Shown here: positions 13,168 to 33,424 of the stretch, in pieces
How positions within the stretch are numbered: the stretch's first letter is position 1
Layout of the letters: the number at the start of each line of letters is the position of its first letter
Assembly (NCBI RefSeq): GCF_000797445.1
Contig: NZ_JSWF01000028.1
Coordinates: 186,001 to 250,000, forward strand
DNA from: Lacinutrix jangbogonensis
GTDB lineage: Bacteria > Bacteroidota > Bacteroidia > Flavobacteriales > Flavobacteriaceae
Reading direction: 5' to 3'
DNA length: 64,000 nucleotides
Program-made: the position numbers and the translations under genes
The notes under the pieces: generated by a model
Databases searched by the model: none
What the model was told of the DNA's origin: nothing
The model's input: only the letters and a program-made list of their open reading frames with translations

Positions 13168-13171
13168 AACA

Positions 13172-14308: not shown

Positions 14309-14311
14309 ACA

Positions 14312-18499: not shown

Positions 18500-19483
18500 T
18501 TACACCTCACTAAATATTTTAACAGAGTCACATTTCATTAATTTATCCCCTATAAATTTATCAAATTTATTTAATGAAAATTCTGTAAAAGCTTTTGGGT
18601 GTCCTATAATAACAAAATTTTTCTTATTTTCTTTTGTGTATTTTTTATGAGCGCTATTTAATAAAATCGCCTTATAGCCATCCATTGAAACCACAGAATA
18701 AGAGGGTTTAGTTAACAGTCTTTTTATTTGTTGATTTGAGGTAGGTGATGCATTACCATCTCCATAAGGTTTATGTTTTTTTGATCCAATTTTTTTTATA
18801 AACACAAATTTCCAAAAGAATGATGGGGAAACTTTTGTACTGGCTATAGGGATCTCTATAAAAGAACCATCTTCGTCTTCTATACAAGGATCATTTGAAA
18901 ATTTCCAATGATCTAAATTCTTAGCTGTTGAAAAATTAAACCATTGGGTTTTTGTTGAGTTTTTTCCTTTATAAAATACTGTACTATCAATTTTTAAACC
19001 ATATTTCAAAAAAGCAGTTTTAAGTTTTTCAAAAGGTTGAATGCACCAGCCACCTGCTCGATAAGTATTAATTTTTTTATCAATAATTTCCTCTAACACA
19101 CTTTTATATTTATAAAAAATATTTTCTATTTCATCTTCTGAAAACGCGTCTAACCTATACCTTTTAAGATCAAAAACCCAACCGTTTTCACTATATTCAG
19201 TATCTTCCCAATGAGGATGAATGTGTAACTGTATATCGTGACCATTATCTGAAAGTTCTTTTATTTGATTACGAACTAAGTTATAATCTTGTTCTAGTTG
19301 AGGGTATTGATGCTTGTACTCCTTCAGTTTTATTAAGTATCCAGAATCCACAAAAAAAACACATTTAAAATTATGCTTATTTGCTATTTTGATTAATTCA
19401 TTGGTAGGTTCTATAATACATTTTTCTGGTGTTCCTGAATCGCCAAAAAATAGTTCGTAATCTAAAGTTATAAAAATATTCAT
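18500..19483 (-). CDS. polysaccharide deacetylase-like (NodB-fold) protein
   Basis: 327 residues with a CE4/NodB-like fold. A metal-site acidic pair lies at the N-terminus (ITLDYELFFGD, Asp8), FKCVFFVDSGYL follows, and QLHIHPHWED (His87, His89, His91) supplies the histidines. The later YRAGGWCIQP motif resembles the catalytic arginine loop. No signal peptide or membrane anchor is present, so it should act in the cytosol, perhaps on a nucleotide- or lipid-linked sugar. Canonical TFDDG is replaced by TLDYE, typical of a divergent subgroup in exopolysaccharide loci. N-deacetylation is the best guess, but an inactive or non-amide esterase role is possible. Confidence 0.7.
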   Translation of the reverse strand: MNIFITLDYELFFGDSGTPEKCIIEPTNELIKIANKHNFKCVFFVDSGYLIKLKEYKHQYPQLEQDYNLVRNQIKELSDNGHDIQLHIHPHWEDTEYSENGWVFDLKRYRLDAFSEDEIENIFYKYKSVLEEIIDKKINTYRAGGWCIQPFEKLKTAFLKYGLKIDSTVFYKGKNSTKTQWFNFSTAKNLDHWKFSNDPCIEDEDGSFIEIPIASTKVSPSFFWKFVFIKKIGSKKHKPYGDGNASPTSNQQIKRLLTKPSYSVVSMDGYKAILLNSAHKKYTKENKKNFVIIGHPKAFTEFSLNKFDKFIGDKLMKCDSVKIFSEV

Positions 19484-19534
19484 CAGAAAAAAATTATTTA
19501 AAAAAGTTATGTTCTATTAAAAACTAATTTTAGT

Positions 19535-20791
19535 TTAAATGCTCTTCACATTACTGGTGGACGGTTTTTTATTAAAAAAATACAATAAGGAGTTTATAAT
19601 TGAGAAAAACACAATTCCAAAATGACGCTCAAAAATATTTTCAGTAACACATGTTATCGTTATTATAATTAAAAAACCTATATAAATGTAGTCATAATTT
19701 AAAATACTTATATAGAATAGTTTAATAAACATAAACATAAATAGCAGGAGTAGGGGTAAGCCTCCTATTAATATCAATCCTATATATTGATTGTGTGTAT
19801 TAAATTTCTGAGAAAAGGCGTTTTTAAGTCCCTTTTCTTGATAACAATGTAATAGTTTTGATTTATTTACATAATTACTTCCATAACCAAACAACCAATT
19901 ATCTTTAATGGATTCTAATCCACAAAAACTAATACTTAATCTCCTACTAACAGAAGCACTTTCTCCTGGTTTATCACCATAAACAGCGTATTCAAACTTA
20001 GAGTGAGGACTAAAAACAGTATCGATTACACGTTCCTTTACTATGGGAACATTGCTTAGAACAATAAAAGAAAAGGAGATAAACAAAGAAAATATAACTG
20101 CTCTTTTTATTGTAAGTCGAGATATTAAAAACAATATTAATATTAATATTGTTATTAAAAATTGTATACGACTTCCTGATAACATTGTAATTAATACGCT
20201 ACTCAACATAATAAAAATTGAAAATAGTTTTTCTTTTTTTGAAAATTCACCAAATGTAAATAAGATAAATAAAAGAACCACATTATTAATAAGTCCTAAA
20301 TATGTAGCGTGAACATAAAAATATTTTAGCAAGCCTCTGTAGCTAAAAAAGTACCAGTTTATTTTTGAGAAATCAGGAAATTTACTTATTTGCCTATAAA
20401 AAGCAACAATTATAAGTAATAAATTATATATAAAAATAGAAATGGATAAGTACTTAAAAATATTTTCTCTAGAAACTTTACTCAAAGTCTTAAGTAAAAA
20501 AAAGAGTATTGGAAATAATATTAAAGGAATACATCGAATTAAAAACTCTGATTCTTTATTGAAATTAAAAAAAAACGCACTAATTGTGAGATAAATAAAA
20601 GGTGAAATTAAAAAAAAGCATTTTTTAATTTCATTAAAATTAAATTTAACTTTTGATTTAATAAACAAAATAATTATTGTCAAAGTAAATAGTATTATAA
20701 GTATACTATTATACGATGGTTTTAGCAATAAAGAGAAAATCATTAACGCTATTAATAAATCTATCTTTTTTAATCTTAAAACTTTACTCAA
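19535..20791 (-). CDS. O-antigen ligase/polymerase family (Wzy_C) protein
   Basis: 418 residues with roughly eleven transmembrane helices, starting KIDLLIALMIFSLLLKPS. The large periplasmic loop contains RRLSISFCGLESIKDNWLFG and the diagnostic FNTHNQYIGLILIGGL, the histidine motif of the Wzy_C/WaaL family. It either polymerises undecaprenyl-linked repeats or ligates finished chains to lipid A core in the periplasm; sequence alone does not separate the two. Its start overlaps the GT4 stop by four bases (ATGA), so translation is coupled. Confidence 0.82.
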   Translation of the reverse strand: MSKVLRLKKIDLLIALMIFSLLLKPSYNSILIILFTLTIIILFIKSKVKFNFNEIKKCFFLISPFIYLTISAFFFNFNKESEFLIRCIPLILFPILFFLLKTLSKVSRENIFKYLSISIFIYNLLLIIVAFYRQISKFPDFSKINWYFFSYRGLLKYFYVHATYLGLINNVVLLFILFTFGEFSKKEKLFSIFIMLSSVLITMLSGSRIQFLITILILILFLISRLTIKRAVIFSLFISFSFIVLSNVPIVKERVIDTVFSPHSKFEYAVYGDKPGESASVSRRLSISFCGLESIKDNWLFGYGSNYVNKSKLLHCYQEKGLKNAFSQKFNTHNQYIGLILIGGLPLLLLFMFMFIKLFYISILNYDYIYIGFLIIITITCVTENIFERHFGIVFFSIINSLLYFFNKKPSTSNVKSI

Positions 20792-21858
20792 TTCTTTAAT
20801 GTTTTAATTTGATTAAATAAATCCAAAGCTGTTTTTTCTGAGCAAAATTGTTTAGCCGTTTTTATAGCTTCGTAAGACATCTTTTGTTTTTTTACTTCAG
20901 AAAGATCAATATATAACAAAATTTTATTTACTAAGTCTAAACTGTTGTTTGTTTCAAACAAATAACCATTAACACCATGGCTAATATACGTTTTTAACCC
21001 ACCAATATTACTACCTATTACTGGACATCCACAAGCCATAGCTTCAAGTCCTACTAGGCCTAAACTCTCATGTAGTAGTGTTGGAAATACATTAATATGC
21101 AATTGATTTAAATAAAAAGGTAATTTAGTATGTGAAATAGCACCAACAACTTCTACAGAATCTTCAATATCTAAAAACTTTAGCTTCTCTTTTAATAAAT
21201 TATGATCTGTACCCCCTCCTATCATAATTGCTCTAAACCTAATCTTTCTTTCTTTTAAACCATTTAAGGCATCTAAAAAAACCTGCCACCCTTTTCCTTG
21301 TGTAACTCTAGAAAAAAAACCTAATGTAAGTAACTCTTCTTTTTCTTCGACTTCAAAGGGTTTGAAATTATTAACATCTATTCCTCCGGATGCTGATACA
21401 AATATTTTACTAGCATTAACTTTAAAATTTTCTGTCAGAATGTTTTTAAAAAACTCCGAAGGGACTATGATTAAATCTGATAATAATAATATTTTATTTG
21501 GTGTTTTTCTTAATTGGCCTTTTACATCAATAACGTCTCCACCGTGAAAATTTATTATTATTTTCTTATTTTTATTAAACCTTAAAAAAATTATTAAAAC
21601 TTTAACTGCAATAGCATTATAATGTAAATAAATAATTTCAAAACCAGAAGACCTAATTAGATTAAAACATATAGATACTAAATATTTTAGATATTTAATT
21701 GCTTTCTTAATGGTATTTCTTTCTAATCCTTTTATTAAAGATTTAGCGGTAAACTCTACACCTAACTTAGTCAGTTTTTTTTCCGAATTTTCTACAAAAA
21801 CGCCATAATATGGTGTTTCTATACTAGGATACATGTTAGAAATAAGAAAGACTTTCAT
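20788..21858 (-). CDS. GT4 family glycosyltransferase
   Basis: GT-B fold retaining glycosyltransferase, cytosolic, peripheral to the membrane. The N-terminus MKVFLISNMYPSIETPYYGVF is typical, with the acceptor-side NFHGGDVIDVKG and the donor-side LGFFSRVTQGKGWQVFLDAL. The E-x7-E motif PTLLHESLGLVGLEAMACG ends the active site before PVIGSNIGGLKTYI. 356 residues, complete. It lies between the sulfotransferase gene and a polymerase gene and presumably adds one residue of the repeat unit. Confidence 0.93.
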   Translation of the reverse strand: MKVFLISNMYPSIETPYYGVFVENSEKKLTKLGVEFTAKSLIKGLERNTIKKAIKYLKYLVSICFNLIRSSGFEIIYLHYNAIAVKVLIIFLRFNKNKKIIINFHGGDVIDVKGQLRKTPNKILLLSDLIIVPSEFFKNILTENFKVNASKIFVSASGGIDVNNFKPFEVEEKEELLTLGFFSRVTQGKGWQVFLDALNGLKERKIRFRAIMIGGGTDHNLLKEKLKFLDIEDSVEVVGAISHTKLPFYLNQLHINVFPTLLHESLGLVGLEAMACGCPVIGSNIGGLKTYISHGVNGYLFETNNSLDLVNKILLYIDLSEVKKQKMSYEAIKTAKQFCSEKTALDLFNQIKTLKN

Positions 21859-21900
21859 AGCTTTAAACGTAAGTTTTAAAAATTATTATCATATTCAATT

Positions 21901-22749
21901 CTATATTTTATGTATTTCCCACAATCTAGTGTTAAAGCCAAATTCTTCTTCAAGTTTAATTGCATCTAAAAGCAGTTCCTCTTTTAGGACTAGTTTCTGC
22001 TCAATAGTTAATTTATAATCTTCTTCACTAATTTTTTTACCTCCATACTTTCCTAATCCCAATCGCACCTTATCTTTAGCTATTTGAGGTATTAAGGGTG
22101 TTATGTTTAGCTTTCTTAAAAACTCTCTCAATAACCTATAAGATTTAAAGCTTTGCCCGATGGCCGATTTTTTATCATTGTGCAAATAAGAAGTATCATA
22201 TTGAAAGTCAGTTAATTCTAGAAATGAATTAATCTCTTTCATTACCAATTTAGAGTCTGTTCTTAGTCTTTCGAAATCTACAAATAAAAAATCTTTTTTA
22301 TCGAAAAATTTAAGATATTTAGCTACTTGTTTGTAATATTTTGCTGACTCTATAATCCTAGTGTCTAAACATTCTGTGATTGGTCTAATCGAATCTCTAT
22401 CTGTTAAAAACTGATGCGTTTGAGACTCTATTTTTTTAAAAGGATCTCTAACAACATAAATAAATTTAACATTAATATTAGATTCCTTTATCCTCTTTGG
22501 TATGTTAATAAATCCATCTTGTGTATAATCTGTAGTAGCGTCAATTCCATAGTCATGTTGTTCTGCTACATACTCAACAAATTGTTTTTGATACCATTGA
22601 AGACCTTTTTTCCAATTCTTAATATTACCAAAAAAGTTTGGCTCTTTTTTGAACCCTCCAGCGACTTTAGGATGTTGTCTAATGTATTCATACAAACTAG
22701 ATGTTGCTCCCTTTTTAGTACCTATGATTAGGCAAAACTTATTTAACAT
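21901..22749 (-). CDS. PAPS-dependent carbohydrate sulfotransferase (1)
   Basis: 282-residue cytosolic sulfotransferase. The PAPS 5'-phosphosulfate loop is IIGTKKGATSSLYEYIRQHP (Lys12/Lys13, Thr16, Ser17) and the 3'-phosphate site is YVVRDPFKKIESQTHQF (Arg101, Ser109). These are the two hallmarks of Golgi-type glycan sulfotransferases such as the heparan sulfate O- and N-sulfotransferases. No signal peptide, consistent with PAPS being cytosolic. The start overlaps the upstream FemAB-like gene by 11 bases. The cysC/D/N/Q genes of the same locus would supply PAPS and remove PAP. Acceptor position is unknown. Confidence 0.88.
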   Translation of the reverse strand: MLNKFCLIIGTKKGATSSLYEYIRQHPKVAGGFKKEPNFFGNIKNWKKGLQWYQKQFVEYVAEQHDYGIDATTDYTQDGFINIPKRIKESNINVKFIYVVRDPFKKIESQTHQFLTDRDSIRPITECLDTRIIESAKYYKQVAKYLKFFDKKDFLFVDFERLRTDSKLVMKEINSFLELTDFQYDTSYLHNDKKSAIGQSFKSYRLLREFLRKLNITPLIPQIAKDKVRLGLGKYGGKKISEEDYKLTIEQKLVLKEELLLDAIKLEEEFGFNTRLWEIHKI

Positions 22750-23722
22750 TGCTTTGTTCTTTTAATATTTGATCTATTGGATCTCCGAGATATTTTTTTC
22801 CTTTCAATAACAGTAATATATTAATTGATAGGTTCATTAATTTGTATTTAAAAGGGTTTACTATTACTTTAAAAGCAAAACCTTCCTTTAGAATAGGATT
22901 AAAAGAGGTTTTAAACTTTTGTATATTATAGTACTTTGATTTTTTAGCAGGATTAATTCTTGCTCCTACAAAATCATAATTTTGTACACCTTTATCTCTT
23001 AATAATTTCATTGTTTCAAAGTGTAATAAATTTAAAGCTCCTGGAGAGGGTTTGGGTACACTCCCCCCAAAAAGGTAATATGCTGTTTCATTATTAAATG
23101 GAACCCCTATTACGCCTTGCGTCTCACAATTTTTAACGGCCTTTAATACTAACATATTAGCCCCTAATTCTTGAGTTATTTTTTTTACGTATTCTAATGA
23201 AGGTGCTATTAACTCTTCTCCTTGACGTTTAAAAGTCTCATTCATTAGATGCCATAAATCATAACTACTCGCTTCTACAACTTCCACATTGTCTTTAGTT
23301 GCTTTTCTTACCATATTTCTAGTTTTACTCACAATAGAGAGCATTAACTCATCATCAGGTAAATTAATAGGTTTAACATAAGATCCCCATGGAACTGAAA
23401 TAGAATTTTCTGGAACAGCATTAAACACAGCGTTTGATTGTGCCTTTGAAATACAATCAACATTCAAATTCGATTTGATAAACTCAATCAAATCATTGAG
23501 GTATTTAATCTCTGTTTTATTTGTTAGTGTTTTATCTAAACTAATTATCTCATTTGTAAAGATAAGTCTTCGGAATATTAATTTTTTATCTATTATAAAA
23601 GGTAAGATATTATTATTTTCATCACGAAACCAACCATATTCATTTGATCTACTTTTTAAAAAAGATTTTTTAGCAAATACGGGGAATTTAGAATCATCTA
23701 TATCTCTTAAAATTTCTATCAT
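22739..23722 (-). CDS. FemAB/GNAT-fold acyltransferase-like protein
   Basis: 327 residues resembling the FemAB-type peptidoglycan bridge/GNAT superfamily. Seen are RNMVRKATKDNVEVVEAS, the middle segment ETFKRQGEELIAPSLEYV, GVIGVPFNNETAYYLFGGSV, and ALNLLHFETMKLLRDKGVQ followed by YDFVGARINP, which correspond to the second GNAT-like domain. No signal peptide. FemAB proteins transfer amino acids from aminoacyl-tRNA, and relatives in exopolysaccharide loci are annotated only loosely. Its place between the C5-epimerase and a sulfotransferase (11-base overlap) points to a decoration step on the glycan, perhaps N-acylation of an amino sugar; this is inference. Confidence 0.7.
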   Translation of the reverse strand: MIEILRDIDDSKFPVFAKKSFLKSRSNEYGWFRDENNNILPFIIDKKLIFRRLIFTNEIISLDKTLTNKTEIKYLNDLIEFIKSNLNVDCISKAQSNAVFNAVPENSISVPWGSYVKPINLPDDELMLSIVSKTRNMVRKATKDNVEVVEASSYDLWHLMNETFKRQGEELIAPSLEYVKKITQELGANMLVLKAVKNCETQGVIGVPFNNETAYYLFGGSVPKPSPGALNLLHFETMKLLRDKGVQNYDFVGARINPAKKSKYYNIQKFKTSFNPILKEGFAFKVIVNPFKYKLMNLSINILLLLKGKKYLGDPIDQILKEQSNVK

Positions 23723-23727
23723 TTTTT

Positions 23728-24753
23728 TTAATTAAACATATTATATATATACACTAAGTCTGAATATAGAATATAAGAAGAATATAGGATATAAGGTACA
23801 AAGCCTGATAAGTCTTCTTCAAAAACTTTTGCATATTCATTTAAACTTTCCAATTGACTTTTTTCAAATAAAACCTGTAATTGTATGATATGCAATTTAT
23901 GATACCAGGGATTACAATAGGTAAAATGATTTTTCATTGAAGGTTTGTCTAAAGAATAAGCACTCCAGCCCCCTAAATCAAATTCCTTTATTTTTTCACT
24001 TAAGATCTTTACGTACTTATCAAAAAGTAATCCCGCTTTTTGATTTTTTGTAATTATATACGCGTCATGCAAACCAATTAAGGTATAATTAAACCCGTTT
24101 AAAACATGGGTGGGTTGTTCTGTTGGATATTCTTCTAAAAACTCTCCAAAGATTTTAGAATTATTATATATCCCTCCTTCTTCTATGGTTTTCTCGAACT
24201 GCAATAAACTCTTATGTATTGATTTAATATAAATTGAATCTTTTGTTACCTGATATGCTCGTGAAAAAACAGATAATGCGAAACCTTGAGACAATGCAGA
24301 TTGCCAAGGTGCTTTTATTATTTTATCCAATGTATGTAATGGCACATCAAAAGTAATTCGACCAGAACTGTCTTGTTTATTAACTAACCACTTTGCATTA
24401 ACTAAAAAGGACTTTAAAGCAATGCTATCCTTGCTTCTGTAAGCATTAGCATTTTGAAGGTCCCTTAATGCTGCTAGCCCAATAGCTATAGGGCTATAAA
24501 AGACCTCTTTACCTTTTGTAAGATTTGTCTTTTTAGATCTATCTATCATATAGACACCATCAGAATCTTTTATAAGCGCATTCTTATCTTTATAAAACAA
24601 GAATTTAATAGGATAATTAGTAGAGTATAACCCTAAAGTATTCGATTGTTTTTCTACCTGCCAGGTATTATGAATATTTACTGATCTTATAACAATTGTT
24701 AACATATAAACAGAGATAACAATGAATAATATGCTTTTAATTTTAATTTTCAT
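23728..24753 (-). CDS. D-glucuronyl C5-epimerase homologue (GLCE C-terminal family)
   Basis: Family enzymes invert C5 of D-glucuronate within a polymer to give L-iduronate. The 341-residue protein has an N-terminal signal-anchor (ILFIVISVYMLTIVIRSV) and then an alpha/alpha-barrel with QSALSQGFALSVFSRAY (about 151-167), FLEEYPTEQPTHVLNGFNYT (205-224), GGWSAYSL (261-268) and WYHKLHIIQLQVL (283-295). From memory, human GLCE has nearly the same LEEYPT..VLNGF..SLIGL and DYH..HI.QLQLL blocks. It overlaps the Wzy-like gene by 11 bases. Predicted location is the periplasmic face. Substrate is inferred: a GlcA-containing repeat from Ugd. Activity on heparosan itself is unproven. Confidence 0.85.
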   Translation of the reverse strand: MKIKIKSILFIVISVYMLTIVIRSVNIHNTWQVEKQSNTLGLYSTNYPIKFLFYKDKNALIKDSDGVYMIDRSKKTNLTKGKEVFYSPIAIGLAALRDLQNANAYRSKDSIALKSFLVNAKWLVNKQDSSGRITFDVPLHTLDKIIKAPWQSALSQGFALSVFSRAYQVTKDSIYIKSIHKSLLQFEKTIEEGGIYNNSKIFGEFLEEYPTEQPTHVLNGFNYTLIGLHDAYIITKNQKAGLLFDKYVKILSEKIKEFDLGGWSAYSLDKPSMKNHFTYCNPWYHKLHIIQLQVLFEKSQLESLNEYAKVFEEDLSGFVPYILYSSYILYSDLVYIYNMFN

Positions 24754-25989
24754 AGGTCACTTTATTTTTCATTAATCCCAAAATAAAAATTGAAGCTAAT
24801 ATGCCAGCCACCGTTGGACTATAAAACACATGCCCTGCCATAAATCCATGAAGATAAGCTAAACAACATATAATTAAAACAGACAAGCTGAAAAACGATT
24901 TCTCATTTAGAAATTTAAAAGTTAATTTGAATAATAATAGTCCATAAAAAAAAAGCATTATTGATAATAATACCGTTCCATAAGCCCCTTTAATATCATG
25001 ATAATCTCTTTCTACGTAAGCTCCTTTTTCTTTTGATAGTTTTTTCTTGTCTCCTTTAGAACTTCTTGCAAAATTATTGCTAAATGAACTCATTCCTTCT
25101 CCAAAAATCATTTTAGTATTCCCTCTACTATCAAAATAATCATTTGCCCAGTTTGTTACATCGGATCTAACTCCTTTTTCTAAAATCTTCTCATATTTAG
25201 TTGAAAAATAATTAGAACTTTGAATCATACTATACATGTATATTGTCGTCGAAATTAAAGCAATAAAAGAAAGAAAAAATATTATCACTTTTTTCAATAC
25301 ACTCATTTTTCCATATAAAAATTGAAGAAATATATACAATAAAAAGATTGCAGTTGAAATTAACATTCCTGTTGTCGTTGCCATAAACAACAAGGATAAA
25401 TATCCGGTTAAAAGCCAAAGCCAATGGATTCGAAAATCTCTTTTGTTAAATAAAAAAAAAGCGAATAGAATTAAAATAGTAATTCCAATATCATTTTGAG
25501 CTGAAAAAAAAGATTTAGTTCCAAACCCCCATTTTCCATAAGTTGACAGTCCTAAACCTGTAATAAAAGAAAAACAAATTAAGCCTGTAGCTGCCTTATA
25601 ATACAACTTTAAATATTTAATTATATACTTCTCTTTATTAACAACAGTTATTCTTCTTAAAGCTTCATAAATAATGAAGAAAAAAGTACTTTTTAATAAG
25701 AATGAAAACTCATAAGGCAAACTAAACTGATCATCTAAAAAAAACCATAGAGGAAGATGAAAAGCCCATACAATAACAAAAAAATTAACGATATTTATAT
25801 CTTTTTTTTTAATATATACGAAAAGCATGTGATCCACAGAATGCCTCTATACAATTTACCAATTGAAAAATTAATATCATTAAATTCAAAAACACCATTA
25901 ATTATATCAACAAAAACTGGGATAAATATGATTAAATAGAGTCCTAATTGTGGCTTTTTTTTTACACTTAAAATTAGTTGATTAACCAT
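24743..25989 (-). pseudogene. Wzy-like O-antigen polymerase, frameshifted at a T9 run
   Basis: Polytopic membrane protein with about ten helices, presumably the polymerase of the sulfated-repeat pathway. The frame from 25837 lacks the usual N-terminal helix. The missing part is in another frame, starting MVNQLILSVKKKPQLGL at 25989 and including PVFVDIINGVFEF and IGKLYRGILW, a typical start for this family. The two frames join if the T9 run at 25802-25810 has one more base (ILKKK then DINIVNFF), giving about 415 residues. The ATG at 25989 overlaps the deacetylase stop by eight bases, which supports it as the real start. A 64-residue fragment and an internal start are the alternative reading. 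Confidence 0.75.
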
Positions 25990-26713
25990 TTCTTATTTTT
26001 TTAAACATCCCCCATAATCCAGATACTTTTACAGCAGCTTCGTAAAGGTTAGGAGTGTCGGTTAAACAAATTCTTTTGAGCTTAAAAATGTCTGTATTTG
26101 AGTCATTAAATCCAAAATCGACAGTAACAGCATTGGTATATTCTAACTGTTCTACAATTTTGACATCTCTTTCTCCATATTTACCATATGGGTAAGCAAA
26201 GGAAGTTAATTTTTTATTTAATTTTTTTTCTAAAACAGTTTTTGATTTACCTATCTCTATTATAGCCTTGTCCTCATCGATTTCTAGTAAATTAGGGTGA
26301 GATATCGTATGGCCTTGTAAATCGTATACCCTATTTGCTGTCTCAAAATCAAAATCATTAAAAAGGTAGTATCCATCTAATTCACTCTTATCTGAGCAAA
26401 CATATATTGTGGGTTTATTTTCATATTTATTAAATAAATTTATGAGTTCCATATTACTTTTCCTACCATCATCAAAAGTAATTACTAAAGGGTAATTAGG
26501 TAATGTGTTTAATTTATTATTAATTTTTGCTTGAATAAATGTTTCTAAAGTAATAACACTATATTTTTTATTTAAAAATGCTATAATTCTTTCTGCATTA
26601 TTTAAAGGTAATTCATGCAGAAGTAAAATAGTTGTTTTTTTCTTTTGAAATAAGACTCTAATTAGCCAAGAGAATCCTAAAAAATACATTACTATAAAAA
26701 TAATATTTTTCAT
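25982..26713 (-). CDS. NodB-type polysaccharide deacetylase (CE4)
   Basis: 243-residue carbohydrate esterase 4 protein with a full motif set: TFDDG (Asp81/Asp82), GHTISHPNL (His135 and His139), and AYPYGKYG. These give metal-dependent N- or O-deacetylation. An N-terminal hydrophobic segment (IIFIVMYFLGFSWLIRVLF) acts as a signal anchor and should place the domain at the periplasmic face or hold it at the membrane. It overlaps the sulfotransferase stop by one base (TAATG) and is followed by the Wzy-like gene. Deacetylation of an N-acetylhexosamine in the sulfated polymer would expose an amine, as in heparan sulfate; that is inference. Confidence 0.85.
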   Translation of the reverse strand: MKNIIFIVMYFLGFSWLIRVLFQKKKTTILLLHELPLNNAERIIAFLNKKYSVITLETFIQAKINNKLNTLPNYPLVITFDDGRKSNMELINLFNKYENKPTIYVCSDKSELDGYYLFNDFDFETANRVYDLQGHTISHPNLLEIDEDKAIIEIGKSKTVLEKKLNKKLTSFAYPYGKYGERDVKIVEQLEYTNAVTVDFGFNDSNTDIFKLKRICLTDTPNLYEAAVKVSGLWGMFKKIRNG

Positions 26714-27582
26714 TAATTCCAGATCTTAATTTTATTATTCATAAAAATTTCTAGCTTTTCTATATCTTCTTTATATAATGTGCTTAATAAATATGTTTTT
26801 AATTCTTGACTAATAGTTTCAAAATTGTCGTTTTTTTTATTCAGAGTTTTAAAAAAAACTCTGATTCCTTCTCTAATTTTAAAAGATGGCACTATTATTC
26901 TTAAAACGTTACGTAATACATTCCTTTTTTCTGAATAAAATAGTTTGTGAAATTTTTTATTTTTCACTATAATTTTTGAATTGGAGACTAGGTTTACATT
27001 TAAACTCTCATTAGGATTAACTTGTAGAAACTCTAATATATCTTTAGCAACTGATTCTGGGTTTTCTTTAAGGTTCTCTAAAAATGAAATTTTAATATTA
27101 GACTTACCAAAAGCATCAATAAATTTACGCATGTGATGAAAATACAAGCCTCTGCCTATTAAAACATCGTAAAAAGGCATGTTTTTATCTATTTGTTTAT
27201 TCTTCTTAAAATACTCATTAATATTAAAGCCCTCTATTTTACCATGTCTTTTTTGGTGTAAATATTCCGAAAAACACCTTAATGCTGGATTCCTTAATAT
27301 TAAAAGTATTTTAATGTCTGTACCAAAGTTTTCTACAATCCTTTTTAATGCTTGTTCTGAATACAAATATGTAGCAGAAATTTCACCAGAAATTACTTTG
27401 TCATGATTTGGATTAAAAAAAGACTCATAACTCTTTAGACCTTTAGCGTAATTAATATCGTTATCAAAAAAGTGGAAATCTTTTTCTAAAGGAATACATA
27501 TTTGCGGGTGTTGTATTAAAATATTATGAATAGTCGTTGTTCCACATTTAGCTGCTCCTACATTTAAAAAATGTAATTTCAT
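26713..27582 (-). CDS. PAPS-dependent carbohydrate sulfotransferase (2)
   Basis: 289-residue cytosolic sulfotransferase. 5'-phosphosulfate loop LNVGAAKCGTTTIHNILIQH (Lys12, Gly14, Thr15, Thr16) and 3'-phosphate motif LILRNPALRCFSEYLHQKRH (Arg97, Ser105) are both intact. The R-N-P-x-x-R-x-x-S-x-Y form closely resembles heparan/chondroitin sulfotransferases. It differs widely from the 21901-22749 protein, so the two probably act at different positions. It sits five bases after the Wzx gene and one base into the deacetylase gene, a close pairing of deacetylase and sulfotransferase that recalls animal N-deacetylase/N-sulfotransferase as two proteins. Specificity unknown. Confidence 0.9.
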   Translation of the reverse strand: MKLHFLNVGAAKCGTTTIHNILIQHPQICIPLEKDFHFFDNDINYAKGLKSYESFFNPNHDKVISGEISATYLYSEQALKRIVENFGTDIKILLILRNPALRCFSEYLHQKRHGKIEGFNINEYFKKNKQIDKNMPFYDVLIGRGLYFHHMRKFIDAFGKSNIKISFLENLKENPESVAKDILEFLQVNPNESLNVNLVSNSKIIVKNKKFHKLFYSEKRNVLRNVLRIIVPSFKIREGIRVFFKTLNKKNDNFETISQELKTYLLSTLYKEDIEKLEIFMNNKIKIWN

Positions 27583-27587
27583 TGATA

Positions 27588-28895
27588 TTATAATTTAAAA
27601 GGAATGTAAAAAGATTTAATTTTCAACTTGTTATAGATATAAACTGCACTAGATATATTCCAAAACGCTAAAGCAAAAATTGTACCTAATGCTCCTCCTA
27701 ACATTCCCATTTTTGGGATTAACAACAAATTTAATATAATATTAATAATTAAAGCTATAAATAAAAAATTCTTAAAAACTTTTTGATTTCCTGTCATTTG
27801 CAAAACTACCCCAACTGGACCACAAAAAGCATTTACAAATTGACCTACGCATAATACTATTAAAATAAATTGGCCTTCAATAAACTCATCTCCAAAAAAA
27901 GATAATATGTAATCATTGAATACTATTAAAAACAAAATAGTAACCAATGAACAAAAGAAATTTATTTTAGAGACTAATTTTATAAGTTTTGAATACTTAA
28001 TAGTGTTTCCTTGAGCATACAAATTGGCTAATTGCGGTGCTAAAATAGAATTTAATGAGTTTAGCCCAAAACTTATCAAAGTTGAAATTTTAACGACAAC
28101 ACTATAAACACCAACCACACTCTCTTTTTCATAAAGCCCCAATATTATGCTATCAGCCCAGCCCATGATTACAACTATGGAAGCTGAAAACATCATTGGT
28201 AATGAATCAATAGTGAAATTTTTTATTTTTATTTTCCTAGAATCTTTAAACTTACTATTTAAAATAGGTCTAACTTGAAAAGCAATTAAAATTGCAGTAA
28301 TTAATAATGCGAAAAAATATGCTTTAATAGGGAAGGAATCCTCCTTAACATTAAAAACAAACGTAAGGATTGATAAAATAATTATTGCAAATAAAAATCG
28401 AGAGGTATTTGTGTAAAAAGAAAATTTAGAATTTTGTTTCTCTACTCTAAAAACACTTGTTCCTAGACTTATATATACAACAATAGGAATTGAGTAACAT
28501 GCGTAATTAATATACTCTAGATGAACAACTTTGTCGAAAAAAATTAATGCTAGACGCTCTCTTAGCATTAATAAAATTATCATTATTATAAACGATAAAA
28601 ATAATGAAATTAAAGTTGCTTGATTAAACAAGCGTTTATTAGCATTTCCTATTGATAAATATCGCACAAGGTTTAAGTCATAACCTAGTTTTGGAGCTAT
28701 TGCTCCTATCATCATTATTGAAAAAGAAATTGCTATTAAACCATTTACATTTGCTCCATACCACTTTGCAACTACCCAAGTAAATAAAAAACTAAATAAT
28801 ACTCCTGCAATTTTTATAAAAAAAAACGCACCTCCTTTAAAGATAAGGTCTTTAATGTCTGTATCCTCAAGCTTTGTTTTAATTTTATTTATCAT
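27588..28895 (-). CDS. Wzx-type oligosaccharide flippase
   Basis: Integral membrane transporter of the MOP/polysaccharide-synthase family, flipping undecaprenyl-diphosphate oligosaccharides to the periplasm. 435 residues with about twelve to fourteen helices. Seen are FKGGAFFFIKIAGVLFSFLF at the N-terminus, SLGTSVFRVEKQNSKF, MMFSASIVVIMGWADSIILG, and a central LNSILAPQLANLYAQGN, as in Wzx/RfbX proteins. It lies between cysQ and a sulfotransferase gene with gaps of 1 and 5 bases. Its cargo should be the sulfated or soon-sulfated repeat unit. Confidence 0.9.
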   Translation of the reverse strand: MINKIKTKLEDTDIKDLIFKGGAFFFIKIAGVLFSFLFTWVVAKWYGANVNGLIAISFSIMMIGAIAPKLGYDLNLVRYLSIGNANKRLFNQATLISLFLSFIIMIILLMLRERLALIFFDKVVHLEYINYACYSIPIVVYISLGTSVFRVEKQNSKFSFYTNTSRFLFAIIILSILTFVFNVKEDSFPIKAYFFALLITAILIAFQVRPILNSKFKDSRKIKIKNFTIDSLPMMFSASIVVIMGWADSIILGLYEKESVVGVYSVVVKISTLISFGLNSLNSILAPQLANLYAQGNTIKYSKLIKLVSKINFFCSLVTILFLIVFNDYILSFFGDEFIEGQFILIVLCVGQFVNAFCGPVGVVLQMTGNQKVFKNFLFIALIINIILNLLLIPKMGMLGGALGTIFALAFWNISSAVYIYNKLKIKSFYIPFKL

Positions 28896-28896
28896 T

Positions 28897-29646
28897 TTAA
28901 CCTACAATAAAATAAGGATTCAATAAATTCTTTTTGTTGTAATTTAAAACTTTCTTTGTTTTAGGTTCAATAACTTCAATATTTAAACCCAATAAAACAG
29001 CGTGTGCAGCAGCTGTATCCCACTCCATAGTTGGAGCAAATCTAGGGTAAACGTCTGCATTACCTTCTGCAATCAGCATAAATTTTAACGAACTACCCAT
29101 CGATACTATGCTGGTTTTTTTAAATTGGTCAATAAAATCTTGAGTTTCTTGGTTTAGATGAGAACGAGAAGCAACAATACGAACCGTATCACTATTCTTT
29201 TTAGATTTACTTAGAGTTGTAATTTCTTTACCATGAATCATGAAAGCTCCTTTACCAACTCCACCAAAATACAATTTATCAAGTACCGGAGCGTACACAA
29301 CACCAAACACCGGCTTTTTGTTTTCAATAAGCGCAATATTTACAGTAAACTCTCCATTGCGCTTAATAAACTCTTTTGTACCATCAACCGGATCAACCAT
29401 CCAAAAAGCTTCCCAATTCTTACGTGTTTCGTATGGTATGGACTTACCTTCCTCGGAAAGTACAGGGAGTTTGGTTTCTTTTAAGCCTTCTACAATTATT
29501 TTATGTGCTTCTTTGTCTGCTTTTGTTAGTGGGCTTTCATCTTGCTTTAATTCAATCCCAAAATCTTTGTCATTATAAATACTTAAAATTGCTTTTCCTG
29601 CATCTCTTGCTACTTCAATAATATGTTCTATATCTTCTGCTTTCAT
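28897..29646 (-). CDS. cysQ: 3'(2'),5'-bisphosphate nucleotidase
   Basis: Li-sensitive phosphatase family member hydrolysing PAP (the sulfotransferase by-product) or PAPS to AMP or APS. Metal-site motifs LPVLSEEGKSIPYE, WMVDPVDGTKEFIKRNGEFT and the C-terminal TMEWDTAAAHAVLLG are intact. 249 residues. It is 11 bases after cysN and one base before the flippase gene. Because PAP inhibits sulfotransferases, its presence in the unit makes sense for glycan sulfation as well as for sulfate assimilation. Confidence 0.95.
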   Translation of the reverse strand: MKAEDIEHIIEVARDAGKAILSIYNDKDFGIELKQDESPLTKADKEAHKIIVEGLKETKLPVLSEEGKSIPYETRKNWEAFWMVDPVDGTKEFIKRNGEFTVNIALIENKKPVFGVVYAPVLDKLYFGGVGKGAFMIHGKEITTLSKSKKNSDTVRIVASRSHLNQETQDFIDQFKKTSIVSMGSSLKFMLIAEGNADVYPRFAPTMEWDTAAAHAVLLGLNIEVIEPKTKKVLNYNKKNLLNPYFIVG

Positions 29647-29657
29647 TTTATTTGCTA

Positions 29658-30911
29658 TTATACTATCATTCCTGCAGCAACTGTTTCGTTTGTTGCATCA
29701 TCTACAAGAATAATACTTCCTGTGGTTCTGTTTTCTCTGTAAGCATCAACCATTAATGGTTTTGTTGTACGTATTTTAACTTTACAAATATCATTCATGT
29801 TTAGCTCTTTGTCGTCGTTAACACGTTCTAGAGTATTGATATTGTATTTATAAACCACTTCTTTAATCATCGCTTTTTGGTCGTTAGAAGTGTGCTTTAT
29901 TGTATATTTTGCTCTTGGTTTTGCTGAATCATTATTTAACCAACATAACATTACTTCAATATCTTGTGATGCTTCTGGTTTATTGTTAGAACGCACAATC
30001 ATGTCTCCACGACTAATATCAATATCATCTTCTAGTGTTATAGAAACTGACATTGGTGCATGTGCTTCTTCTAATGCTGCGTCTAAAGTATCTATACTTT
30101 TAATTTTAGAAGTAAATCCAGATGGCATTACTGTTATATCATCTCCTTTTCTAAAGATACCACTTGCAACACGTCCTGCATAACCTCTATAGTCTATAAA
30201 ACCTTCACTTTGTGGTCTTAAAACGGTTTGAACAGGAAAACGAGCGTCTACTTTATTAATATCACTACTAATATGCATAGTCTCTAAAGTGTGTAACATT
30301 GGTGCTCCTTGGTACCAAGGCATGTTTGTAGACTTGTTTACTACATTATCTCCATCTAAAGCACTCATTGGAATAAAGCGTACATCTGTTACTAGCATTT
30401 TTGAAGAAATATCCTCAAATTGTCTAACAATATCATTGTACACTTTTTCAGAATAGTCTACCAGATCCATTTTGTTTACACAAACAATAATGTGTGGTAT
30501 TTGTAATAAAGACGCTATAAATGCATGTCTTTTAGTTTGTTCTATTACACCATGTCTTGCATCTATTAAAATAGTTGCAACGTTAGCTGTCGATGCTCCT
30601 GTTACCATATTACGAGTGTACTGTATATGCCCTGGAGTATCTGCAATAATAAATTTACGCTTAGGTGTTGTAAAGTACCTGTATGCAACATCTATGGTAA
30701 TACCTTGTTCACGTTCATCCTTTAAACCATCTGTGAATAAGGCTAAATCTACACCTTTATGACCTTTCTTTTTACTTGTGTTTGTAATAGCTTCAAGTTG
30801 ATCTTCGAATATAGATTTAGAATCGTATAATAAACGACCTATTAACGTACTCTTTCCATCGTCTACACTTCCTGCTGTTGTAAATCGTAATAATTGATTG
30901 TTATCTAACAT
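29658..30911 (-). CDS. cysN: sulfate adenylyltransferase GTPase subunit
   Basis: Large GTPase subunit of ATP sulfurylase, coupling GTP hydrolysis to APS formation. EF-Tu-like GTPase motifs: G1 AGSVDDGKSTLIGRLLYD, the DTPGHIQYTRNMVTGAS switch II, and NKMDLVDYSEK. Two beta-barrel domains follow. 417 residues, and the end (VDDATNETVAAGMIV) shows no CysC fusion; APS kinase is encoded separately here. Partner cysD lies 54 bases upstream. Confidence 0.97.
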   Translation of the reverse strand: MLDNNQLLRFTTAGSVDDGKSTLIGRLLYDSKSIFEDQLEAITNTSKKKGHKGVDLALFTDGLKDEREQGITIDVAYRYFTTPKRKFIIADTPGHIQYTRNMVTGASTANVATILIDARHGVIEQTKRHAFIASLLQIPHIIVCVNKMDLVDYSEKVYNDIVRQFEDISSKMLVTDVRFIPMSALDGDNVVNKSTNMPWYQGAPMLHTLETMHISSDINKVDARFPVQTVLRPQSEGFIDYRGYAGRVASGIFRKGDDITVMPSGFTSKIKSIDTLDAALEEAHAPMSVSITLEDDIDISRGDMIVRSNNKPEASQDIEVMLCWLNNDSAKPRAKYTIKHTSNDQKAMIKEVVYKYNINTLERVNDDKELNMNDICKVKIRTTKPLMVDAYRENRTTGSIILVDDATNETVAAGMIV

Positions 30912-30965
30912 TTTTGTTTTTTTATTGAATAGATTCCTGCTTTCATAGGAATTACAAATTAATCT

Positions 30966-31871
30966 CTAGAAATACCCTTGACGCTTTCTATCTTCCATTG
31001 CAGATTCAGAACGTTTATCGTCGCTTCTATTTCCACGTTCTGTGTTACGCATTCCTGCAACTTCTGTAGCAATTTTTTCTAATGTATCTGCTTCAGATTC
31101 GTCTCCTCCAGTAATTGTAATATCTCCTAAAGTTCTAAAACGTATTTTTTTAGTTACTACTTCTTCGTGGTCTTCAAGTATTAAGAACTCTGAATTTGGA
31201 ATCCATGTATCTTGTCTCCAAACCACTTCACGTTCGTGTGCAAAATATAAAGATGGTATTGCAATATTTTCTCTTTTTATGTAGTTCCAAACATCCATTT
31301 CTGTCCAGTTACTAATAGGAAATGCTCTAAAATGTTCTCCTTCAAAATGCTTACCGTTAAATATGTTCCATAATTCTGGTCTTTGGTTTTTAGGATCCCA
31401 TTGTCCAAAATCATCTCTATGTGAAAAGAAACGTTCTTTTGCTCTTGCTTTTTCTTCGTCACGTCTTCCGCCACCAATAGCACAATCTATTTTATTAGAT
31501 TCTATAGCGTCTAAAAGCGTTGTTATTTGAAGTGCGTTACGTGTTGCATTTTTACCTTTTTCTTCTGCTACACGACCATCGTCTATAGATTCTTGTACAG
31601 AACCAATAATTAGTTTTACGCCTAAATCTTCTATAACATCATCTCTAAATTGAATAGTTTCAGGAAAGTTATGCCCTGTATCAACGTGCATTAATGGAAA
31701 TGGTATTTTTGCAGGATAAAAAGCTTTCTTAGCTAAATGTGTTACTAAAATAGAATCTTTTCCTCCTGAAAACATTATTACTGGGTTTTCAAATTGTGCC
31801 CAAACTTCACGTAAAATAAAGATTGCTTCACTTTCTAATTCATCTAAATAATTTAAGTAATATTTACTCAT
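30966..31871 (-). CDS. cysD: sulfate adenylyltransferase subunit 2
   Basis: Catalytic subunit of ATP sulfurylase: ATP + sulfate to APS + PPi, acting with CysN. PP-loop ATPase motif PVIMFSGGKDSILVTHLAKK, LMHVDTGHNFPETIQFRD, the GGGRRDEEKARAKERFFSHR block and the end SAMEDRKRQGYF are all canonical. 301 residues, complete. The ATG overlaps the cysC stop by four bases (ATGA), so cysC-cysD are translationally linked. Confidence 0.97.
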   Translation of the reverse strand: MSKYYLNYLDELESEAIFILREVWAQFENPVIMFSGGKDSILVTHLAKKAFYPAKIPFPLMHVDTGHNFPETIQFRDDVIEDLGVKLIIGSVQESIDDGRVAEEKGKNATRNALQITTLLDAIESNKIDCAIGGGRRDEEKARAKERFFSHRDDFGQWDPKNQRPELWNIFNGKHFEGEHFRAFPISNWTEMDVWNYIKRENIAIPSLYFAHEREVVWRQDTWIPNSEFLILEDHEEVVTKKIRFRTLGDITITGGDESEADTLEKIATEVAGMRNTERGNRSDDKRSESAMEDRKRQGYF

Positions 31872-32467
31872 TGCTCCAGTTTTAATTTAGGTTTTATATA
31901 ATTCATGATATCATGAACAGCTTCTTCTACCGTTTTTTCTTCGGTTTTAATTTCAATCTCTGGGTTTTCTGGTGCCTCATAAGGTGCAGAAATTCCTGTC
32001 ATATTTTTAATTTCACCAGCTCTAGCTTTTTTATAAAGACCTTTTACGTCTCTTCGCTCGCATTCTTCTACACTAGTGTTTACATAAACTTCGACAAAGT
32101 TAACATCTTTAACGATATTTTTAATGTTCTCTCTGTCTTTTTTATAAGGAGAAACAAACGCGGCTAATACGACCAAACCAGAATCTACTATTAAATTAGA
32201 TATTTCCGCTATTCTTCTAATATTTTCTGTTCTATCTTCTGGATCAAAGGTTAGATCTTTATTTATGCCTTTTCTAATATTGTCTCCATCAAGCGTGTAG
32301 GTTTTTATACCCAATTTATATAGTTGTTGTTCTACAACATTTGCTATTGTTGATTTTCCAGATCCAGAAAGACCTGTAAACCAGATTAAAAATGAATTGT
32401 GTTTATTATTATTTTGCCTATCTTTTTTTGATATTTGATAGTTATGAGGGATGATGTTTTCTTTCAT
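31868..32467 (-). CDS. cysC: adenylylsulfate (APS) kinase
   Basis: Phosphorylates APS to PAPS, the sulfate donor for sulfotransferases. P-loop WFTGLSGSGKSTIANVVEQQ, LDGDNIRKGINKDLTFDPED, RRIAEISNLIVDSGLVVLAA, and KKARAGEIKNMTGISAPYEA are diagnostic. 199 residues, standalone. It leads the PAPS supply genes, 10 bases after the DUF2061 gene. No sulfite-reductase or PAPS-reductase gene lies in the locus, so its likely purpose here is PAPS for the two sulfotransferases. Confidence 0.97.
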   Translation of the reverse strand: MKENIIPHNYQISKKDRQNNNKHNSFLIWFTGLSGSGKSTIANVVEQQLYKLGIKTYTLDGDNIRKGINKDLTFDPEDRTENIRRIAEISNLIVDSGLVVLAAFVSPYKKDRENIKNIVKDVNFVEVYVNTSVEECERRDVKGLYKKARAGEIKNMTGISAPYEAPENPEIEIKTEEKTVEEAVHDIMNYIKPKLKLEQ

Positions 32468-32477: not shown

Positions 32478-32930
32478 TTATTTAAACCTAAAAAGATAGT
32501 TTCTAATTCTTCCTAATGGTAATTTTAGCCATATTTTTTCATGTACATAATAGAGTACGAATTTGGTAAATAATTCTGTAAGCGCAATATATAGAGCAAT
32601 TTCGTTAAAACTTTTTAATACGATACCTGAAATAACAAAAGTCATTGTAGTGGCAACAATTCGCCATGAAATGGATTTATAAAGAATTTCTCTATTGGTT
32701 GTTGCTTGTTTACCAAGATAACGTAGCCATATTCTTTCATGAAAATAAAATATTGCTAATTTTATTAAAAACTCTGAGGCGCCAATTTTTATTGCATCTT
32801 CTATACTACAATTCTCTAATAAGCAAGTAATAAGTAGTACTACTAGAATTGTATCTGTCGTTGCTACAAAACGCCATGAAATTCCTTTAAGGATACTTCT
32901 TATATGTGAAGATTTTTTTAAGGTTGCCAT
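32478..32930 (-). CDS. tandem DUF2061 membrane protein
   Basis: 150 residues made of two copies of a roughly 65-residue DUF2061 unit: SILKGISWRFVATTDTILVV...FYFHERIWLR, then LYKSISWRIVATTMTFVISG...YYVHEKIWLK. Each unit has a helix pair and ends in H-E-[RK]-I-W-L. The protein is predicted to be inner membrane. DUF2061 proteins occur near sulfate-activation genes in several bacteria; a role in sulfate or sulfonucleotide handling is only a guess. It sits just ahead of cysC. Confidence 0.85.
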   Translation of the reverse strand: MATLKKSSHIRSILKGISWRFVATTDTILVVLLITCLLENCSIEDAIKIGASEFLIKLAIFYFHERIWLRYLGKQATTNREILYKSISWRIVATTMTFVISGIVLKSFNEIALYIALTELFTKFVLYYVHEKIWLKLPLGRIRNYLFRFK

Positions 32931-32953: not shown

Positions 32954-33424
32954 TTAAAGACCAATATTTCTAATCCATAATGTTTTGCCATACTCCTTAG
33001 CTCTATATTTATCTCGATCATACAAAAATAACCGAATACTATCAATAAATTTTATTGGAGCCTTTACATTTTTTATAATATACTTATTATCTCCAAAAGC
33101 TTCTATACTAGGTTTACAGTCCCATATATAACTTGGCTTTACATTTCCATTTTTATTCGTAATTGTATCACTAAAAACACGTATTCCTAAAGAGTATCTC
33201 TCTACATCAATTGGTTTTGTCTTTGAATCTAACTTAAGAATTAAAGAAAACTCTCCTATTTCTTTCCGTTGAATCAAAAACTTTTCTATTCTAAAACTCT
33301 TAATAAAAGTGTGGTTGATATTTCGAGTATTAGAAATATTTTTTAACCCATTCACTAAATACCCGTCTCTTTTACAAGAGGCTAATAAAACAAAAAAAAT
33401 GAGTATTCCTACAAATCTCTTCAT
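32954..33424 (-). CDS. hypothetical lipoprotein
   Basis: 156 residues, not recognised. The N-terminus FVGILIFFVLLASCKRDGY is a lipoprotein signal with a lipobox (LLASC; lipidation at about Cys17). The rest is soluble, rich in beta-strand-like stretches with RYSLGIRVFSDTI and SIRLFLYDRDKYR. There is no conserved catalytic motif. It is wedged between wecC and the DUF2061/cys genes on the same strand (11 and 23 bases), so it may be an accessory of the polysaccharide or sulfate part of the locus. Confidence 0.6.
   Translation of the reverse strand: MKRFVGILIFFVLLASCKRDGYLVNGLKNISNTRNINHTFIKSFRIEKFLIQRKEIGEFSLILKLDSKTKPIDVERYSLGIRVFSDTITNKNGNVKPSYIWDCKPSIEAFGDNKYIIKNVKAPIKFIDSIRLFLYDRDKYRAKEYGKTLWIRNIGL

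Follow-up and report, generated by a model that had tools for sequence, protein, structure and literature searches.

A GlcE-like protein of the bacterium Bermanella marisrubri, the glucuronyl C5-epimerase RED65_08024, converts glucuronic acid (GlcA) to iduronic acid (IdoA) at the polymer level in vitro, acting on O-desulfated heparin and desulfated heparan sulfate, according to excerpts of two papers (PMC13308652, PMC4432689). In these excerpts the native polymer of this one tested bacterial GlcE-type epimerase is not known, Bermanella's own polysaccharide being given as uncharacterised (PMC4432689). Here we describe a locus of Lacinutrix jangbogonensis, a member of the Flavobacteriaceae, in which the gene for another bacterial GlcE-like protein sits in a block of sulfation genes. 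The locus lies in a 64,000-nucleotide stretch of contig NZ_JSWF01000028.1 (hereafter the window), and the block occupies positions 18500-32467 on the minus strand. We think it probable that this locus, of O-antigen or capsule type, directs the Wzx/Wzy-dependent synthesis of a sulfated, iduronate-containing heteropolysaccharide of the cell surface; its gene content, protein families, catalytic residues, predicted fold, gene packing and recurrence make it a well-founded candidate for such a product.

Other described systems share parts of this arrangement. Animal heparan sulfate, modified by GlcE, NDST and HS3ST, has the same steps by enzyme family (deacetylation, sulfation from 3'-phosphoadenosine-5'-phosphosulfate (PAPS) and C5-epimerisation) and a homologous epimerase domain, whereas the window has Wzx/Wzy assembly, a mixed repeat, no fused NDST and steps that are probably split between cytosol and periplasm. 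Halobacterium salinarum is likewise a prokaryote that pairs a glucuronyl C5-epimerase, Agl32, with two sulfotransferases, Agl30 and Agl31, on a glycan containing sulfated iduronate. However, it is an archaeon, the glycan is a short N-glycan and, in excerpts of the reports, Agl32 is without the catalytic residues of GlcE, resembles that enzyme in structure to a limited extent and does its work before the glycan is delivered across the membrane (PMC13308652, PMC11980604). Synechan, made by the xss cluster of Synechocystis, is a sulfated polysaccharide of rhamnose, mannose, galactose, glucose and sulfate that resembles the predicted product in its Wzx/Wzy dependence and its two sulfotransferases; excerpts of PMC8205485 contained no epimerase or deacetylase, neither of which was specifically searched for. 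Two marine capsules have an established sulfated structure, those of Vibrio KMM 8419 (PMC11641403) and Cobetia marina KMM 1449 (PMC11766843). As described in excerpts, their capsule clusters, like the window, combine sulfotransferases with second copies of cysC, cysN and cysD in Vibrio and with PAPS genes including cysQ in Cobetia, but both capsules are of the ATP-binding cassette (ABC) transporter type. The Cobetia repeat is given there as Rha2S and Man6PGro, and in the available text of PMC11641403 the string "iduron" is absent and "epimerase" appears a single time, referring to a heptose enzyme. In the open-access literature, to which the search was confined, subscription papers lying outside its scope, we found no report of a cluster of bacterial genes in which a GlcE-type epimerase is combined with sulfotransferases. 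The suggestion of an earlier note on this DNA that the combination is not a described system therefore stands for that literature, while the combination itself recurs in genome G305 and, as epimerase and sulfotransferase, in G948 and G924 (G, L and C numbers denote genomes, loci and contigs).

The earlier note had proposed a minus-strand block encoding an epimerase homologue, two sulfotransferases, two deacetylase-like proteins, Wzx and polymerases, with a whole PAPS supply set (CysC, CysD, CysN and a CysQ-like protein at 28897-32467) and, at 10687-11985, Ugd. Every gene it named proved to be an open reading frame at the position given here, on the minus strand, and profile searches bore out the families, marginally for deacetylase 1 and with TIGR03026 over its cut-off for Ugd. 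Beyond that proposal, we found a FemAB-like gene between the epimerase and sulfotransferase 1 (ST1) and a third polymerase-like protein at 17279-18484. In order of transcription the block, preceded by one gene of the PAPS set, reads:

32478-32930, minus strand: DUF2061 membrane protein of the PAPS set (PF09834, 101 bits)
31868-32467, minus strand: CysC, adenosine phosphosulfate kinase (PF01583, 228 bits)
30966-31871, minus strand: CysD, sulfate adenylyltransferase small subunit (PF01507, 144.8 bits)
29658-30911, minus strand: CysN, sulfate adenylyltransferase GTPase subunit (PF00009 and PF22594)
28897-29646, minus strand: CysQ-like 3'-phosphoadenosine phosphatase (PF00459 Inositol_P, 168 bits)
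27588-28895, minus strand: Wzx-like flippase (PF01943 Polysacc_synt/PF01554 MatE)
26713-27582, minus strand: sulfotransferase 2 (ST2; PF00685, 64 bits)
25982-26713, minus strand: polysaccharide deacetylase 2 with an N-terminal membrane helix (PF01522, 57.7 bits)
24743-25837, minus strand: Wzy2, O-antigen polymerase/ligase-like (PF13425 O-antigen_lig, 33.4 bits, cut-off 31)
23728-24753, minus strand: D-glucuronyl C5-epimerase homologue (GlcE family) with an N-terminal membrane helix (PF06662 C5-epim_C, 157.9 bits)
22739-23722, minus strand: FemAB/GNAT-like acyl- or aminoacyltransferase (PF02388, 35.2 bits; pepcterm_femAB-like, 32.3 bits, below cut-off)
21901-22749, minus strand: ST1 sulfotransferase, no hydrophobic leader found (PF00685 Sulfotransfer_1, 55.7 bits)
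20788-21858, minus strand: GT4 glycosyltransferase (PF00534, 113 bits), a homologue of which adjoins the epimerase in L079 and L080
19535-20791, minus strand: Wzy1, O-antigen polymerase/ligase-like (PF04932 Wzy_C, 59.2 bits)
18500-19483, minus strand: deacetylase 1, CE4-like, without a leader (PF01522 Polysacc_deac_1, 23.8 bits, cut-off 23.1, marginal)

The genes are tightly packed. With first possible starts, Wzy2 and the epimerase overlap by 11 bases, FemAB and ST1 by 11, CysC and CysD by 4 and ST2 and deacetylase 2 by 1; CysQ and Wzx are 1 base apart and the epimerase and FemAB 5 bases. The host genome has a single C5-epim_C gene, which is inside the block, and five Sulfotransfer_1 genes, two of them inside it.

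The epimerase homologue, of 341 residues, covers positions 3-186 of the 188 in the PF06662 profile, scores far above its cut-off of 23.3 bits and matches human GlcE at E 3.8e-19. Its residues E208, Y209, N219, Y266 and Y284 align with E499, Y500, N510, Y560 and Y578, named as the catalytic residues of human GlcE in excerpts of PMC13308652, and all five are conserved. In an alignment of 77 rows (76 bacterial epimerase loci and the human protein), 50 rows had all five residues and 27 were without at least one, including three that are cut short there. An AlphaFold2 model built from 36 sequences (mean pLDDT 85.2) matched GlcE structures with Z scores of 29.4-30.0 (4pxq, Z 30.0, root-mean-square deviation 3.4 over 295; 6hzz, Z 29.9) at about 24% identity over the structural alignment, whereas the best non-GlcE family among the matches listed reached Z 16.4. 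On these scores, 16.4 against 30 for GlcE, we ruled out an AGE-type cellobiose 2-epimerase. The family call of the earlier note is thus upheld by profile score, catalytic residues and fold; a placement among non-epimerases, set beforehand as the outcome that would speak against the call, was looked for, and both the residues and the GlcE fold put the protein within the family.

The window protein is shorter than the animal enzyme. The three-domain architecture of the latter, with an N-terminal beta-hairpin and a beta-sandwich before the helical domain, is absent (341 residues against about 510 resolved in GlcE), and the model is mostly helical, with a helix at residues 2-36. We built a tree from 71 bacterial rows and two GlcE fragments, omitting five short rows, and used its fork positions, leaving its own group counts aside. 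The window epimerase joined L079 and L080, two Flavobacteriales metagenome-assembled genomes (100/99), whereas animal GlcE joined Bacillaceae rows (100/99); deeper forks were not resolved. The protein is within the GlcE family but outside the animal subgroup, and we know of no tested member of the clade that it forms with L079 and L080. Its sequence opens with MKIKIK, containing three lysines, followed by a single hydrophobic stretch at residues 7-25 in a hydropathy scan, and lipoprotein-like leaders were read by eye in the homologues of L038, L068, L071 and L076. Because of the lysines before a single hydrophobic stretch and the leaders in these homologues, the catalytic domain is predicted to be probably periplasmic.

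Neither ST1 nor ST2 showed a hydrophobic leader in a hydropathy scan. The best match of ST1 in the Protein Data Bank (PDB) was HS3ST5 (E 1.7e-14), and ST2 matched 3rnl (E 3.9e-25), HS3ST5 (3.9e-14) and NDST (1.8e-10). As a control we took another sulfotransferase that this genome encodes on contig C14, next to an ABC-transporter ATPase gene and far from its sole epimerase. It matched 3rnl (1.3e-18), HS3ST5 (8.4e-13) and NDST (3.6e-10). Because a protein away from any epimerase matches HS3ST5 and NDST1 about equally well, the likeness of ST1 and ST2 to heparan sulfotransferases is generic, and we set it aside as evidence for heparan-specific enzymes. Where HS3ST5 has the Glu that we take to be the catalytic base, the printed alignments place a Glu in ST1 and an Asp in ST2. 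No NDST-type fusion was found, deacetylase and sulfotransferase being encoded by separate genes only. The complete CysC-CysD-CysN-CysQ set of the locus lies beside the two sulfotransferases; since the genome has a second set, CysC-CysD-CysN-CysQ-DUF2061, on contig C46, the one in the locus looks dedicated. DUF2061 homologues sit in this second set and in the PAPS set of G122. PAPS genes with sulfotransferases in a polysaccharide cluster are described, in excerpts of PMC11641403, as a hallmark of sulfated polysaccharide synthesis. As a separate observation, contig C14 carries a second glycan locus (L005, L006; L042, L043) with sulfotransferases at 232195-232866 and 242367-242957, a Wzt-like ABC transporter ATPase, a methyltransferase and a WbsX-type glycosyltransferase, perhaps for another sulfated polysaccharide.

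The two deacetylases differ in how well they can be placed. Deacetylase 2 matched 6dq3 (E 2.8e-12) and is PgaB/IcaB-like, yet scores far under the NCBIfam cut-offs; positive charge is greater after its helix than before it, and by the positive-inside rule its catalytic part is probably in the cytosol. A low-confidence model of deacetylase 1 (pLDDT 54, from two sequences) matched CE4 folds with Z up to 12.4, and D8, H87 and H91 are invariant in 12 homologues. No kinship with NDST emerged, although one may still exist: the six PDB sequences that a profile of 12 sequences matched at E up to 10 included no NDST chain, and the 50 matches listed for the low-confidence model were CE4 and other enzymes, with NDST absent.

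Of the 395 genomes sampled from the family, 13 encode a homologue of deacetylase 1; 12 of these are strong (44-100% identity, counting the own genome), and the one weak homologue (G231, 29% identity) was not used. Ten of the eleven strong foreign copies lie in stretches of 10-20 kb and that of G386 on a 5.4 kb contig. The partner of the gene changes from genome to genome. A sulfotransferase directly adjoins it in G313, G349, G098 and G122 and lies one gene away in G360 and G305, the intervening gene in G305 being the epimerase; these sulfotransferases were called by a hidden Markov model built in the analysis (75-94 bits), with Pfam run for G305 only. By contrast, a formyltransferase (PF00551) adjoins it in G077, G157 and G392, and an Antibiotic_NAT acyltransferase with a KAS III protein lies beside it in G177 (L151:10407-12332), which suggests an unusual N-acyl group. 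The short contig of G386 showed no re-decorating partner. In the window, Wzy1 is next upstream and ST1 two genes away. The G122 locus (L158) resembles that of the window, with CysQ, DUF2061, CysC, CysD, CysN and Wzx beside the deacetylase and sulfotransferase, together with WecB, ManNAc (N-acetylmannosamine) dehydrogenase and WecG. The partner sulfotransferases elsewhere belong to a different class from ST1 and ST2, and that of G098 to yet another, its PDB search giving only CurM, weakly (E 0.0085). Such an exchange of partners would be expected if the deacetylase frees an amine on the lipid-linked unit that a cassette enzyme re-decorates, and the pattern suggests deacetylation followed by re-decoration, possibly by N-sulfation. 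In these families, formyl- and acyltransferases use amines as acceptors; by analogy, a sulfotransferase in the same position could be an N-sulfotransferase, while O-sulfation beside a free amine is equally open. Separately, two further proteins are encoded in the G313 locus (L154), at 6823-8262 and 12557-14407: a radical SAM protein that binds B12, and one that combines GDSL-esterase with polysaccharide-lyase domains.

With a threshold of E 1e-15, PF06662 matches occurred in 5 of the 397 genomes sampled from the Flavobacteriaceae, 6 of 395 from the order and 14 of 395 from the phylum; all three samples include the own genome, and those of family and order share G236. At E 0.001 the family count was 61 of 397, the other 56 being weak and mostly partial (E 1.8e-5 or weaker) and excluded from all counts as doubtful. 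Together with 54 loci from a contig collection and two from plasmids, the sampled genomes gave 76 distinct epimerase loci after removal of duplicates (L096 = L038, L127 = L039). This set is not exhaustive: the collection loci were retrieved with one pattern from a 5-row alignment, an 18-row alignment being too divergent, a single-protein scan of the collection found no relatives, and two of three distant plasmid matches were read.

A sulfotransferase was present in the examined stretch of 7 of the 76 loci (by a hidden Markov model built in the analysis and confirmed by Pfam). Apart from the window, it lies 13 bases from the epimerase in G305 (L038), 3.0 kb away in G948 and G924 (L077 and L078, one genus), 4.6-5.7 kb away as two genes in G505 (L065), 6.7 kb in G587 (L070) and 7.8 kb in G446 (L072). 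The last three associations are loose, with other genes in between, and L071, whose epimerase is almost identical to that of L072, shows no sulfotransferase in its stretch. In G305, also of the Flavobacteriaceae, sulfotransferase, epimerase and deacetylase 1 stand side by side; G948 and G924 belong to another family. The seven linked epimerases occupy six places in the tree, all but one within or next to starred groups in which rows lacking a sulfotransferase occur as well. Because of this scatter, the combination was probably assembled more than once, although one origin with many losses may be an alternative history. Homologues of Wzy2 (110 and 114 bits) and GT4 adjoin the epimerase in the two Flavobacteriales genomes L079 and L080. 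A purD homologue lies in the examined stretch of 6 of the 11 foreign strong deacetylase 1 loci (G305, G077, G157, G392, G098 and G360) and also at the epimerase loci of G182, G225 and G236; the window locus is one version of a variable Flavobacteriaceae polysaccharide locus, often beside purD. Two sampled genomes of the window's own genus had neither the epimerase nor deacetylase 1. Two purD-side loci of the same family encode proteins of 728 and 568 residues with divergent C5-epim_C domains (L040:16412-18598, 77 bits; L041:9094-10800, 65 bits), on a distant branch of the tree.

These data suggest a pathway whose activities, topology, order and sugars are predicted from the genes. A lipid-linked repeat would be assembled in the cytosol, with a hexose start, ManNAc or its uronic acid (ManNAcA), rhamnose and probably GlcA, and one or two amino sugars would be deacetylated there. 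ST1 and ST2 would transfer sulfate from PAPS, which the CysCDN of the locus would supply, and CysQ would remove the 3'-phosphoadenosine 5'-phosphate. Wzx would then flip the sulfated unit, a Wzy would polymerise it, and the membrane-anchored GlcE-type enzyme would convert some GlcA to iduronate in the periplasm. PAPS is cytosolic, so sulfation should precede the flip; given a periplasmic epimerase, sulfation of the uronate after epimerisation, as in animals, is not expected, and the predicted product has unsulfated iduronate with sulfate on hexosamine or other non-uronate positions. N-sulfation before the flip would fit, because GlcE recognises GlcA adjoining N-sulfoglucosamine (excerpts of PMC13308652). 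The donors and transferases point to a mixed O-antigen or capsule repeat: the glycosyltransferases are of GT2, GT4 and WecG type (heparosan synthases, GlcA-GlcNAc (N-acetylglucosamine) copolymerases, had no dedicated search) and, with the rhamnose and ManNAcA donors, they agree with the earlier view that plain heparosan is unlikely. The parallel then drawn with the modification steps of animal heparan sulfate holds for the enzyme families; the sulfotransferase likeness is generic and the animal step order is hardly copied. The locus is glycosaminoglycan-like in its modifying enzymes, but probably not in backbone or step order.

Several observations weigh against a sulfated, iduronate-containing product. 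No sulfotransferase was seen in the examined stretch of 69 of the 76 epimerase loci, among them the closest relatives, L079 and L080, so a link with sulfation is not the rule for this epimerase; 13 of the 75 non-window stretches are shorter than 12 kb, so the data often leave such an absence undecided. Many bacterial epimerase homologues show no leader and may be cytosolic, the topology being read from charge distribution and a scan of hydropathy. With two initiating transferases and three polymerase-like proteins, the locus could serve two polymers. By modular exchange, one sulfated polysaccharide (Wzx, ST2 and the PAPS set) and one unsulfated, iduronate-containing polysaccharide (Wzy2, epimerase and GT4) might share the locus, as the grouping of the latter three without a sulfotransferase in the examined stretches of L079 and L080 would allow. 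We regard this as unlikely, however, in view of the single Wzx-like gene among the block genes scanned, the tight packing of epimerase, FemAB and ST1 (a 5-base gap and an 11-base overlap) and the trio of sulfotransferase, epimerase and deacetylase 1 in G305. It is similarly doubtful that the C5-epim_C protein acts on another residue, such as ManNAcA, galacturonic acid or another chain uronate, and makes no iduronate. Its clade is apart from animal GlcE and holds no tested enzyme, so the substrate could be another uronate; identity with GlcE is about 24%, and the locus makes UDP-ManNAcA (UDP, uridine diphosphate) and has a nucleotide-sugar epimerase assigned to family level. Against this stand the five retained catalytic residues, a GlcE match far above the other folds listed, and the presence of Ugd.

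A more serious contender, tentative yet compatible with a sulfated, iduronate-containing product, is an ordinary sulfated O-antigen or capsule whose deacetylases are unconnected with sulfation and serve only to expose amines or to open the way for N-formyl or N-acyl groups. The formyltransferases of three genomes and the Antibiotic_NAT acyltransferase of one fit it, as do the FemAB-like transferase of the window and the different class of the neighbouring sulfotransferases elsewhere. Three of the sulfotransferase-type loci (G313, G349 and G098) also encode hexapeptide-type transferases, often acyltransferases, which could re-acylate the freed amine; together with the O-sulfation option and the different class, they speak against N-sulfation. 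Yet six other genomes have a sulfotransferase beside deacetylase 1 or at a distance of one gene, and ST2 and deacetylase 2 overlap by one base. Bolder, and less probable than any of these, is the idea that the Flavobacteriaceae have a split cytosolic counterpart of NDST, in which deacetylase 1 and, in the window, the ST2-deacetylase 2 pair would free an amine on the lipid-linked repeat for an exchangeable partner to decorate with formyl, acyl or sulfo groups. N-sulfation in the window would then prime the unit for the periplasmic GlcE-type epimerase, so that N-deacetylation, N-sulfation and C5-epimerisation would follow the order of heparan sulfate on another backbone, having arisen separately from the animal pathway. 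In the window and in G305 a GlcE-type gene has sulfotransferase and deacetylase genes around it, joined in the window by PAPS genes, which allows its substrate to be isolated and tested. Should iduronate and N-sulfate both be present in the polymer, heparan-type chemistry would have arisen outside animals, and bacteria would become a source of polymers with sulfated iduronate as well as of soluble partner enzymes, deacetylases and sulfotransferases.

Every listed gene between 7491 and 39321 is on the minus strand, with mostly short gaps, the widest (597 and 362 bases) flanking the gene at 14906 on either side. Upstream of the PAPS genes lie supplies of UDP-ManNAcA and deoxythymidine diphosphate (dTDP)-rhamnose. 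Downstream of deacetylase 1 are the polymerase-like protein, WecG, two WcaJ-like initiating transferases, a LegC/PseC-like aminotransferase and a PseB/FnlA-like dehydratase, and further on Ugd, a short-chain dehydrogenase/reductase (SDR) protein and a GT2 protein, followed by a plus-strand gene and purD. The features outside the block are:

35917-39321, minus strand: RmlD, RmlC, RmlA and RmlB, dTDP-rhamnose supply
34653-35777, minus strand: WecB, UDP-ManNAcA supply (TIGR00236, 502 bits, over cut-off)
33436-34650, minus strand: UDP-ManNAc dehydrogenase, UDP-ManNAcA supply (NF008286, 533.6 bits, over cut-off)
17279-18484, minus strand: third polymerase-like membrane protein (nine hydrophobic stretches; no Pfam match at E 0.01)
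16621-17364, minus strand: WecG/TagA-type transferase, for ManNAc or ManNAcA by family (PF03808, 204.8 bits; TIGR00696 over cut-off)
14906-16258, minus strand: WcaJ-like initiating hexose-1-phosphate transferase (PF02397; TIGR03023, 408 bits, just under the cut-off of 410.75)
10687-11985, minus strand: Ugd, UDP-glucose 6-dehydrogenase, UDP-GlcA supply (TIGR03026 over cut-off; TuaD-like, 542 bits, cut-off 700)
9695-10687, minus strand: SDR nucleotide-sugar epimerase/dehydratase, assigned to family level
8282-9691, minus strand: second WcaJ-like initiating hexose-1-phosphate transferase (PF02397; TIGR03025 over cut-off)

Homologues of the 17279-18484 protein lie beside Wzy, WecG or deacetylase 1 in L076, L112 and L154. 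Between the PAPS genes and the UDP-ManNAc dehydrogenase, positions 32954-33424 encode a small lipoprotein-like protein with no Pfam match, and similar proteins (56 and 15 bits) are present in the PAPS set of G122 (L158). Finally, at 41989-45205 the window encodes a GH3-domain protein resembling the lyso-ornithine lipid synthetase OlsH (382 bits, cut-off 620) beside a DUF6909 protein, and each of the two has homologues next to the polysaccharide loci L039, L076 and L112.

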